Source: a virus. Taken from it: a stretch of DNA of 58,230 nt. This document shows positions 917 through 42,614 of the stretch, one piece after another. A program made the position numbers and the translations under genes. The notes beneath the pieces were generated by a model. It saw only the letters and a list, made by a program, of their open reading frames with translations. It did not search any database and was not told where the DNA came from. The stretch spans positions 1 to 58,230 of the IMG/VR virus record IMGVR_UViG_3300009034_000044. One strand, written 5' to 3'. How positions within the stretch are numbered: the stretch's first letter is position 1; every line of letters starts with the position of its first letter.

Positions 917-930
917 GAGAAAAAAATACT

Positions 931-1020
931 GAGAAGGGAGGGAATTTAACCCCCATTAACTCACTATCACCCTTCACTATACTTCGATGCATCTCCATAT
1001 AGCTACTCGGCTACCTTCCC
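931..1020 (-). tRNA. tRNA-like element with long variable region, isotype unresolved
   Basis: 90 nt with an acceptor stem (GGGAAGG with CCTTCTC, one G-T pair), TA at positions 8-9, and a T arm GGGGG-TTAAATT-CCCTC. The length suggests a class II tRNA with a long variable arm. I could not fold a convincing anticodon stem, and no CCA is encoded (AGTA follows), unlike the neighbouring tRNAs. It lies 2 nt from tRNA-Pro at the 3' end of the array and is followed by a T-rich run. Either a decayed tRNA or an unusual one. Confidence 0.4.
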
Positions 1021-1902: not shown

Positions 1903-1992
1903 TGGTGGAGATGAGGGGAGTTGAACCCCTGTCCAAAAGTAGTTACAATATGTTTCCATATGCCTTGCTTATGTCGAATCCCTTACATCCCC
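1903..1992 (-). ncRNA. tmRNA-like RNA reduced to the tRNA-like domain
   Basis: 90 nt. The 5' end GGGGATGTAAGGGATTCGAC matches the conserved tmRNA start (GGGGnUG...GGAUUCGAC) and the 3' end matches the tmRNA finish (TGGACAGGGGTTCAACTCC, then CCTCATCTCCACCA). Acceptor GGGGATG/CATCTCC (one G-T pair) and T arm AGGGG/CCCCT are intact and CCA is encoded. Where a normal tmRNA has about 250 nt of pseudoknots and the tag frame, only some 40 nt remain, capped by ATATG-GAAA-CATAT with a GNRA tetraloop. It fits no ordinary tRNA D arm. It is the promoter-proximal member of the array. Confidence 0.7.
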
Positions 1993-16587: not shown

Positions 16588-17475
16588 TTATTGTGCTGGT
16601 ACTGTAAGTTGGAATGTACTAATTGAAATTACCGCACTTAATGCTACATATGTTGAACCCATATTAAGTTCAGCACCAGATGTACCGACAGAACCATCTA
16701 TCCTTTCATCTGTAGTTGAACTTCCACCACCATCTCCAGGAGCTATAAGTCTAAAAGAAAGAGCATCAGCACCAGGGTTATATACTCCTGAGCCTGACCA
16801 TGTTTCTGTAGATTTTTTGGATAATGTTCCGTTTGATGCATCGTCAAAAGACAATCCAACAGCAGCACCATCCGAATAAATAGTAACGAGTAAATTTCCT
16901 ACTGGAGCATTATCTGCTAAAGCTGGCTGAGTTCCACTATATAGCTTTACAAATCCTTTGTGGAATATATCTTGTAAAGCCCTTGAAAGAGAAATTAATT
17001 TTATAGTATCAAATCCAAAGAATTTTGCGGTATCACTTGTGTCACTATTCTGCAAAGTAAATCTATGTGTAGTAGCAGTAGCTTTAAATACTATCAATCC
17101 AGCTACGTCTGCATAAAACTCTACCCATGCAGCAGATTGTGTCATATCTGCTGATTCAAATATGGCATCTTCATCTGCTACCGTTCCAACCATTACCCTT
17201 CCACCAGAAGCACCACCAGTATTTTTTCCATATGCATACATAACATACATATGGTCAACCTTCATCGTAGTAATATCCTGATATGCCTTTGCTACATTGG
17301 CACTATTAGTTAGAACCTTTAAATGGTTTCCAGATTGCCCACCAGACTCACTTGACAATACTGCATTAATTGCTGTCCATCCAGTAGTATCAGTAGTAAA
17401 TTCCCCATTAGTAATCTTATTAAGGTTGATTCCAGCAAGTTTATTTCTAAGTCCTGTACTTAGCCTAAGAGCCAT
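16588..17475 (-). CDS. Tail protein with galactose-binding-like domain
   Basis: 295 residues. The N-terminal 165 residues (ITNGEFTTDTTGWTAINA, MYVMYAYGKN, RFTLQNSDTSDTAKFFGFD) look like a carbohydrate-binding jelly roll of the CBM4/9 kind. A second beta domain follows (VKLYSGTQPALADNAPVG, LSFDDASNGTLSKKS). Probably a surface-exposed virion protein that contacts host glycans. Confidence 0.6.
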   Translation of the reverse strand: MALRLSTGLRNKLAGINLNKITNGEFTTDTTGWTAINAVLSSESGGQSGNHLKVLTNSANVAKAYQDITTMKVDHMYVMYAYGKNTGGASGGRVMVGTVADEDAIFESADMTQSAAWVEFYADVAGLIVFKATATTHRFTLQNSDTSDTAKFFGFDTIKLISLSRALQDIFHKGFVKLYSGTQPALADNAPVGNLLVTIYSDGAAVGLSFDDASNGTLSKKSTETWSGSGVYNPGADALSFRLIAPGDGGGSSTTDERIDGSVGTSGAELNMGSTYVALSAVISISTFQLTVPAQ

Positions 17476-37689: not shown

Positions 37690-37947
37690 ATGTATATAGT
37701 GAAAAAAAGAAATGTCATTGTAGTGCATGATAAGAAATTTACTTATCATTTTATACTTAACAGTAAGAAATCAGATAACGGTTTTACTCATGGTTTTCTA
37801 CATGGTATAATAGACTATAAAAACAAGATATTCTATACCACTAAAGAAAATCACTTTTATAATAATGACATTATACGGAGGATGTACACAGTTGTAGAAT
37901 ATAACAAAATGAGATTGCTTGACCTATATAATAAAGGTTTAAAGTAG
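37690..37947 (+). CDS. Hypothetical early protein
   Basis: 85 residues starting MYIVKKRNVIVVHDKKF; GTGGAGG lies upstream. Beta-rich start, Lys/Asn-rich middle, helical end. Its stop overlaps the GTG start of the radical SAM gene. No family recognised. Confidence 0.6.
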   Translation: MYIVKKRNVIVVHDKKFTYHFILNSKKSDNGFTHGFLHGIIDYKNKIFYTTKENHFYNNDIIRRMYTVVEYNKMRLLDLYNKGLK

Positions 37948-39134
37948 TGAAAATAACCTTTTGTCAATTCCATAACAACCTCATTAACGGAAGTTATCAA
38001 GATACTATAGCTGATAGATATTATAATGGTATGTATCAGTATAAGCACAATGATGGTTACTATAAAACCTCAGAGTTTTTTGAATTACCGTTATGGATAG
38101 CTGAAATTAATGGAAGTTTAACCAGTGGTTATGATACTGAATTATTAATAATTGATAACGTAGACAATGCCATAAATCGATTAAATAATAGTGGTAGTGA
38201 TTACATACTCTTTTCAGTATTGGATGTCAATAAAAGATATATTAAGGATATAATCAAAAGATATACTGGTAACGGTTTATTTTGTATTGGTGGCTATGTA
38301 GATTTTACATACTTCAACGGTTTATTGGTAAAGGTATTTAATACCGTTAAACAGTTTATTGAATCATTAGGTATAGAATACCACTATAACTTAGATTATA
38401 AGCTATTCAGAGGTTACAAGACAATACCACGTTTAACTTTAAGTTATGGATGCCTTAACAGATGTAAATTTTGTACCGTAGAAAAAACCATAACTGAGGT
38501 TACTATAGATAACATACTAAAACAAGTTAATGCATTTCATATACTTGATTTTAAATTGGTATATATAAATGATAAAACTTTTGGTCAAGCTAATAATTAC
38601 CATTTATTACATACATTATTTGAAATGATAAAAAGTTATAATAAAGAGTTTAAAGGTTTTATAATTCAAACTACATGTATACAGCTATTAGATATTAACT
38701 TTCAAAATATGCTCCATAGTGGTATTATATATGCTGTAGAAATTGGAATAGAAACATTTAACAATGACTTGTTATATAGTTTAGATAAACCTCAAACAGA
38801 AGATGTTATTATAGAAGCTATAGCAGTTTTAAAAGATAATAATGTCCATATCATACCTAACATTATAATAGGTATCATAAATGAAAATAGAGATACTTAT
38901 AATAAAACCCTTAACCTTATAAAACAGTATCAAGAGGATATATACTTTTTGAATATATATAATTTAGCTGTATATCTTGATACTCCACTTGCTAAGGACA
39001 TTAACGTACTAAACGACAATGACCTTAACGAAAACATAACCAATAAAAGTTTTTATACTGAAAAACAAATGGAAGATAACGAATACTTTTATAATGAAAT
39101 ATTTAAAATTGGTATAGAGATTTTAAACCGTTAA
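37947..39134 (+). CDS. Radical SAM protein, B12-binding-like N-terminus
   Basis: 395 residues from a GTG. LSYGCLNRCKFCTVEK gives the CxxxCxxC motif for a [4Fe-4S] cluster, at about residues 168-175. The preceding region (NSGSDYILFSVLDVN, GNGLFCIGGYVDF) resembles the cobalamin-binding domain of B12-dependent radical SAM enzymes but without a clear DxHxxG motif. The core (YAVEIGIETFNNDLLYSLDKP, IIPNIIIGIINENRDTYNK) follows the usual TIM-barrel pattern. Substrate unknown; likely modifies RNA, protein or a small molecule. Confidence 0.75.
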   Translation: MKITFCQFHNNLINGSYQDTIADRYYNGMYQYKHNDGYYKTSEFFELPLWIAEINGSLTSGYDTELLIIDNVDNAINRLNNSGSDYILFSVLDVNKRYIKDIIKRYTGNGLFCIGGYVDFTYFNGLLVKVFNTVKQFIESLGIEYHYNLDYKLFRGYKTIPRLTLSYGCLNRCKFCTVEKTITEVTIDNILKQVNAFHILDFKLVYINDKTFGQANNYHLLHTLFEMIKSYNKEFKGFIIQTTCIQLLDINFQNMLHSGIIYAVEIGIETFNNDLLYSLDKPQTEDVIIEAIAVLKDNNVHIIPNIIIGIINENRDTYNKTLNLIKQYQEDIYFLNIYNLAVYLDTPLAKDINVLNDNDLNENITNKSFYTEKQMEDNEYFYNEIFKIGIEILNR

Positions 39135-42418: not shown

Positions 42419-42582
42419 AAAAAGAAAAACATAAATTAATTATAATATCTTTGCATGATGCTCAAGCTACATGTTCTTGTGGACATTGGTATCTATGCCA
42501 TACAGGTGAACTAACAAAAGAAGAAATAAAATTACAACATGAAATTCACAAGGGAGGAGGTTATTTAAAGCCACTCTTTTAA
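42415..42582 (+). CDS. Small zinc-binding-like protein
   Basis: 55 residues: ATCSCGHWYLCHTGELTKEE followed by LQHEIHKGGG. The CxCGxW...CH...H...H pattern matches small phage zinc ribbons. ATGA overlap with the upstream gene. Confidence 0.55.
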   Translation: MKKEKHKLIIISLHDAQATCSCGHWYLCHTGELTKEEIKLQHEIHKGGGYLKPLF

Positions 42583-42601
42583 TTAAACTTGAAATAGCAA
42601 G
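42583..42601 (+). repeat. 19-bp direct repeat, copy 2
   Basis: TTAAACTTGAAATAGCAAG identical to 39131-39149. It follows the stop at 42582 and precedes the promoter at 42615 by 14 bp. Confidence 0.7.
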
Positions 42602-42614
42602 CTAAAAAAAGGGG

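Follow-up and report, generated by a model that had tools for sequence, protein, structure and literature searches.

Is the 90-nt RNA encoded by a viral genome at positions 1903–1992 a tmRNA that has kept its tRNA-like domain (TLD) and lost the rest, and what use might a phage make of such a molecule? The DNA analyzed (the window) is a 58,230-base IMG/VR virus record with terminase, portal/adaptor and capsid genes, from an AT-rich phage whose terminase has podovirus-like relatives. A first-pass annotation of this DNA had described the RNA as a tmRNA reduced to its TLD, closed by a short hairpin and encoding no tag, and had proposed that it could be alanylated and bind SmpB, as a decoy or inhibitor of host trans-translation or for ribosome rescue without tagging.

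The RNA gene and its surroundings

Read on the minus strand, the gene consists of GGGGATG TAAGGGA TTCGAC, 38 nt, and GGAC AGGGG TTCAACT CCCCT CATCTCC ACCA. The Rfam tmRNA model (RF00023) matched it end to end, over model positions 1–374, with 72.4 bits (E 3.1e-26 for the whole window; gathering cut-off 47). The central mRNA-like domain and the pseudoknots were deleted in this alignment, and the 38 nt between the two halves contain no tag reading frame, resume codon or pseudoknots. Thus, the hallmarks of a full tmRNA were absent, in agreement with the claim that no tag is encoded, and those of the tmRNA TLD were present: an RF00023 score above the cut-off, G3:U70 with A73, a D-arm without a stem, the GGATTCGAC block, and GGAC preceding the T arm. 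On this sequence evidence, what remains of the tmRNA in this gene is its tRNA-like domain, as had been proposed. Its fold energy was not unusual when compared with shuffled sequences (z −1.0), so that the case for tmRNA identity rests on homology and covariation.

Three other identities were rejected: (i) an ordinary tRNA (RF00005; cloverleaf with D stem and anticodon arm), since ARAGORN makes no tRNA call here and Rfam assigns the gene to tmRNA, without a score as tRNA, (ii) a permuted two-piece tmRNA (RF04321), since this model reached 36.6 bits (cut-off 47), the halves are in standard order and no second piece was found, and (iii) a chance match, which is ruled out by the family model R1 and by covariation (see below). 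No tmRNA match above the cut-off other than that at 1903–1992 was found in the whole record. ARAGORN, a check suggested in the first-pass annotation, called five tRNAs in the window and neither a tRNA nor a tmRNA at the gene.

Table 1. The mini-tmRNA gene, its parts and adjacent elements (window positions).
Feature	Position	Strand	Basis
TLD-only (mini) tmRNA gene, 90 nt, with encoded CCA	1903–1992	−	RF00023 72.4 bits; R1 51.8 bits, E 3.9e-12
Acceptor stem, 5' strand GGGGATG; partner CATCTCC at 1907–1913; third pair G:U	1986–1992	−	sequence
D-loop block GGATTCGAC, equivalent to E. coli A15, U17, C18, G19, A20, C21	1973–1981	−	sequence
Short P2 arm (ATAAG/CTTTT plus C:G), internal loop, terminal hairpin	1935–1973	−	model alignment, fold
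ATATG-GAAA-CATAT hairpin capping the arm	1948–1961	−	sequence, fold
GGAC block, E. coli 332–335, including A334 contacted by SmpB Trp122	1931–1934	−	sequence; PMC8363625
T arm AGGGG TTCAACT CCCCT	1914–1930	−	sequence, model alignment
Discriminator A73 and encoded CCA	1903–1906	−	sequence
tRNA-Tyr(GUA), next gene downstream, same strand as mini-tmRNA	1751–1841	−	ARAGORN, Rfam
Terminator-like 7-bp hairpin (AGAGGGG/CCCCTCT) with T run, immediately upstream of mini-tmRNA	2010–2035	−	
Promoter-like TTGCAA-17-TATTAT, TG ahead of −10, upstream of mini-tmRNA	2072–2100	−	consensus scan

The short P2 arm occupies the place expected for the mRNA-like domain and pseudoknots. The capping hairpin is present as described in the first-pass annotation, on a P2 stem that is weak (5 of 6 pairs; minimum free energy of the arm −4.0 kcal/mol).

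The mini-tmRNA gene (46% GC; flanks 21–25% GC) forms a same-strand array with five tRNA genes, tRNA-Tyr being followed by those for Glu, Asp, His and Pro at 1023–1332. The array ends in an additional degenerate tRNA-like sequence (930–1020, minus strand) with an unusual T loop, TTAAATT, an Rfam tRNA score of 27.9 bits (cut-off 29) and no ARAGORN call. The promoter-like site upstream of the mini-tmRNA gene was obtained by consensus scan alone, and such matches were frequent in shuffles of the region as well. Between this site and the gene lies the terminator-like hairpin, possibly the end of an upstream transcript or an attenuator. The same phage encodes an RNA ligase (PF09414; 53881–54921, minus strand), and RNA ligase genes are also found near the tRNA arrays of phages LuckySocke and BRock. 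A radical SAM protein is encoded beside small unknown genes at 37947–39134 (plus strand). Searches with the terminase and a neighboring protein yielded only distant relatives, or fragments without the region, and no close relative covering the mini-tmRNA locus.

A family of phage mini-tmRNAs

Viral contigs of IMG/VR were scanned with a pattern composed of tmRNA D-loop and T-arm anchors separated by a short gap, which matched 28 of them, and with two relaxed patterns, which added others. When acceptor stems were required to form 6 or all 7 of their pairs and T stems 4 or all 5, and one false match had been taken out, there remained, among the matches listed, at least 120 distinct sequences including that of the window, i.e. 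at least 119 other phage mini-tmRNAs; these are a sample of viral sequences and not a census. Loci L005, L025, L032 and L165 were discarded as chance pattern matches lacking proper acceptor stems. ARAGORN "tmRNA" calls at L006, L158 and L117 were judged spurious, since they placed an implausible 5' domain a long way upstream or gave no credible tag; L007 and L027, also with such calls, are identical in sequence to L006.

Members of the family are 72–98 nt long, including the four tail bases (most ∼80 nt), with a short closed arm linking the two halves. The search for homologues suggested in the first-pass annotation thus found them, strongly covarying, in many phages, and neither their architecture nor the record itself points to a split tmRNA. 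The common arm consists of a P2 of 6–7 pairs, an A-rich asymmetric loop and a 3–4 bp hairpin. The predicted arm of the window RNA has a similar fold, but with a U-U mismatch in P2 and larger loops, because of which this RNA is to be regarded as a divergent member of the family.

The 120 sequences contain 35 different acceptor stems, with several types of pair at positions 4–6. G1:C72, G2:C71, G3:U70 and A73 were found in all 120; U70 was left free in every viral-contig pattern used to collect the set, and C71, C72 and A73 were imposed in two of the three. G:U occurs at pairs 4–7 in only 7 of 480 cells (1.5%), compared to 120 of 120 at pair 3. In an alignment of 38 members, 95.9% of cells pair and 17 of 21 pairs vary on both sides; the covariation score was 0.70, compared to 0.155 in shuffles and at most 0.17 with the partner slid. 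The covariance model R1, built without the window, recovered the window RNA (Table 1) and gave no more than 25.2 bits to the tRNAs of the window and no more than 38.1 bits to non-mini loci elsewhere. As far as its sequences tell, the family is under clear selection.

The conserved positions include those expected for alanine charging and SmpB binding. AlaRS recognizes tmRNA through the G3:U70 pair, A15, U17, C18 and G19 are SmpB-contact bases, Trp122 of SmpB enters a pocket of A15, U17 and A334 in ribosome structures, and replacement of G19 by C prevents SmpB binding (PMC8363625). The window RNA has A15, U17, C18, G19 and A334. G19 was kept in 98 of the 99 distinct sequences in which two D-loop bases were left free, many of this set stemming from a scan that imposed CG. 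Most scans required the GGAC block, which holds A334; in the others, most sequences keep it and eight deviate, some of them still with GGA. No SmpB gene was identified in 50 phage records or in the window, and therefore the SmpB of the host would be used. The earlier proposal that the RNA could be charged with alanine and bind SmpB is supported by these features.

Among the closest known systems is the TLD-only tmRNA of mycobacteriophage DS6A (tmRNA Website id 11587; PMC4131195, PMC11915505), which, like the window RNA, is phage-borne, has the standard order and contains little beyond the TLD. DS6A was reported as a single case and is compared here by description, whereas the gene of the window sits in a tRNA array of an AT-rich phage with a podovirus-like terminase. 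The hairpin-capped P2 arm, the strict G3:U70 and the breadth across phages are features of the present family that do not appear in the descriptions of DS6A consulted. The 2025 tmRNA database holds 97,179 tmRNAs, 79 of them from bacteriophages and nine classed as "standard, no CDS"; the forms named in that class are two plastid sequences and DS6A (PMC11915505).

Standard one-piece tmRNAs (RF00023) share with the window RNA the G3:U70 acceptor stem, the D-loop, the start of P2, GGAC, the T arm and CCA, but they are 300–400 nt long and carry a tag frame, a resume codon and pseudoknots, all absent from the 90-nt RNA. The CDS-less organellar tmRNAs (jakobid and oomycete mitochondria; Mallomonadaceae plastids, ∼65 bp) have likewise kept the TLD and lost the tag frame; however, the mitochondrial forms are usually permuted and function in an organelle with imported SmpB, alongside which they persist (PMC11915505), while the window RNA is a phage gene in standard order. 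In the permuted phage tmRNAs (RF04321) the TLD is also phage-encoded, but the halves are reversed and the coding piece is separate. The design of the window RNA is almost that of the Thermus thermophilus TLD fragment (5' 25 nt and 3' 34 nt joined by UUCG; PDB 2CZJ, PMC3929946), in which both ends of the TLD are joined by a short closed stem and which binds SmpB; that fragment is engineered and the window RNA natural. No report of a wide phage family of TLD-only tmRNAs was found in the literature searched, mostly open-access papers, and the size and common architecture of the family appear to be unreported.

Distribution in phage genomes

The mini-tmRNAs are frequently linked to head genes. At 14 viral loci the gene lies between those for the head maturation protease and the major capsid protein, on the same strand, and the same location was found in Pontimonas phage phiPsal1. 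An ARAGORN tRNA or tmRNA call was present within 600 bases at 29 of 147 loci, a few of these being tmRNA calls at the mini gene itself. Many loci are on contig fragments, where absences carry little weight.

A scan of 84,980 species genomes gave 90 matches, mostly 3' halves of full-length tmRNAs, dozens of which served as an internal control, and ∼11 real mini forms. Three of the latter (L220, L221 and L274) clearly adjoin phage head or packaging genes.

Six cultured phages carry a mini-tmRNA, namely Streptomyces phages LuckySocke, GiJojo, pSt2308, BRock and Alone3, and phiPsal1; in none of them is it annotated as a tmRNA. In GiJojo (L333, record positions 17023–17265) an annotated hypothetical protein, gp44, which may be spurious, overlaps the gene. 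Standard annotation thus overlooks mini-tmRNAs, as illustrated by the lack of an ARAGORN call in the window and by the protein annotated across the gene in GiJojo. Unannotated tmRNAs of other types were also encountered in cultured phages: a full-length one in Salinibacter phage SRUTV-1 (L336, 59–434; RF00023 80 bits) and permuted ones in several others (L337, L339–L345). BLAST matches in Pseudomonas, Xanthomonas, Stenotrophomonas, Achromobacter and other phages were rejected, as each of them belonged to a tRNA or to a tmRNA of permuted or full-length type.

A search of 40 records with RF00023 gave a tmRNA-model match in all of them, in 37 above the cut-off. A tmRNA other than a mini form exceeded the cut-off in one of the 40, a 123,582-base phage record (G026), in which the mini-tmRNA (L063, 46486–46567) is accompanied by a full-length tmRNA of 392 nt (L334, 77588–77979), also called by ARAGORN, with the unusual predicted tag SPEYRIRLLTNTKW. 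Another record (G042, 135,953 bases, of loci L105/L139) contains two mini-tmRNA genes, at 42520–42602 and 109671–109753.

Possible roles in trans-translation

The reading that we consider probable is that the mini-tmRNA acts as a charged, SmpB-bound competitor, which enters stalled ribosomes and blocks or replaces host tagging. Its expression, charging, binding to SmpB and the ribosome, and net effect on the host we infer as follows. The host AlaRS would charge the RNA with alanine, and host SmpB would bind its elbow, standing in for the anticodon arm. On ribosomes that have stalled on an mRNA lacking a stop codon, EF-Tu would then place the complex in the A site, in competition with host tmRNA. 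Since the mini-tmRNA has no resume codon, it could not add an ssrA tag, and the tagging and proteolysis of unfinished (phage) proteins would be blocked or replaced. Entry into the ribosome is plausible because a TLD fragment has been crystallized with SmpB and EF-Tu in the ribosomal A site (Neubauer 2012, as cited in PMC3929946 and PMC4151336), and because of the conserved bases.

A TLD-like RNA strongly inhibits tmRNA in Escherichia coli (Mao 2009, as cited in PMC4131195 and PMC11915505), and a similar TLD molecule is a strong inhibitor whether chargeable or not, perhaps via titration of SmpB (PMC4131195). Thus, a TLD does not have to be charged to inhibit tmRNA in E. coli. The invariance of the charging determinants in the phage family nevertheless suggests that peptidyl transfer is part of the natural role, which would go beyond SmpB titration. 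This raises the question of why charging should be conserved if an uncharged TLD already inhibits. Further observations speak against the competitor reading: the co-occurrence of a full-length tmRNA and a mini form in G026 is awkward for a simple inhibitor, the P2 stem of the window RNA is weak, with a loop atypical for the family, the searches yielded no close relative of this phage with the locus, and the GGAC block, imposed in most scans, is kept by most but not all members where it was free.

The absolute conservation of G3:U70 and A73 would be expected if the charged mini-tmRNA, together with SmpB, took over the nascent chain, added one or several alanines and released it, thereby replacing trans-translation without tagging. 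This role, which we consider rather unlikely, would also be in line with the full-length tmRNA retained by G026, with the persistence of CDS-less mitochondrial tmRNAs mentioned above, and with the template-free polyalanine synthesis by SmpB and a TLD fragment in vitro (Shimizu and Ueda 2006, as cited in PMC3929946). However, this polyalanine synthesis is known only in vitro and with an artificial fragment, none of 41 phage records encodes a peptidyl-tRNA hydrolase, and no release-factor partner was identified. In a more specific form, distinctly improbable in our estimate, phage mini-tmRNAs would be template-free alanine tailers, Ala-mini-tmRNA entering stalled ribosomes repeatedly with host SmpB and EF-Tu and adding untemplated alanines. 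Given the in vitro result, alanine tailing may be the most interesting of the alternatives: if true, it would be a phage counterpart of RqcH-type Ala tailing and would free stalled ribosomes without marking the product with the ssrA degradation tag.

It is very doubtful that the mini-tmRNA merely binds SmpB and starves host tmRNA, with charging irrelevant. The SmpB-contact bases are kept and TLD inhibition is independent of chargeability (PMC4131195), but such a sponge leaves unexplained why the alanine identity pair occurs in every sequence while G:U is so rare at the neighboring pairs. That the window RNA is a decayed, functionless remnant of a captured host tmRNA is highly implausible: its weak P2 and atypical arm, the degenerate tRNA in the same array and the lack of relatives covering the locus would fit, but neither the acceptor stem nor the T arm, D-loop block, GGAC or CCA shows any damage in a low-GC background, and selection on the family is clear. 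An origin as a by-product of integration, or as a replacement for a host tmRNA gene disrupted by it, has next to no probability. Integration at ssrA is common, and phages can bring tRNA genes of their own as substitutes for disrupted ones (PMC10865867), but an attP copy comprises only a 3' part while the window RNA has both halves, with a conserved arm between them. Moreover, an RNA that encodes no tag cannot stand in for tmRNA, and there is no integrase among the window proteins scanned.

The TLD-only phage tmRNA, formerly a single reported oddity (DS6A), is now represented by at least 120 distinct forms, which show strong selection for alanine charging elements, occur in phages of unrelated hosts and often lie beside the major capsid gene. 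The cultured Streptomyces phages and Pontimonas phage phiPsal1 make a phage role in trans-translation testable. The finding suggests that phages commonly target or make use of trans-translation, and many of them may interfere with this basic bacterial quality control or replace it.
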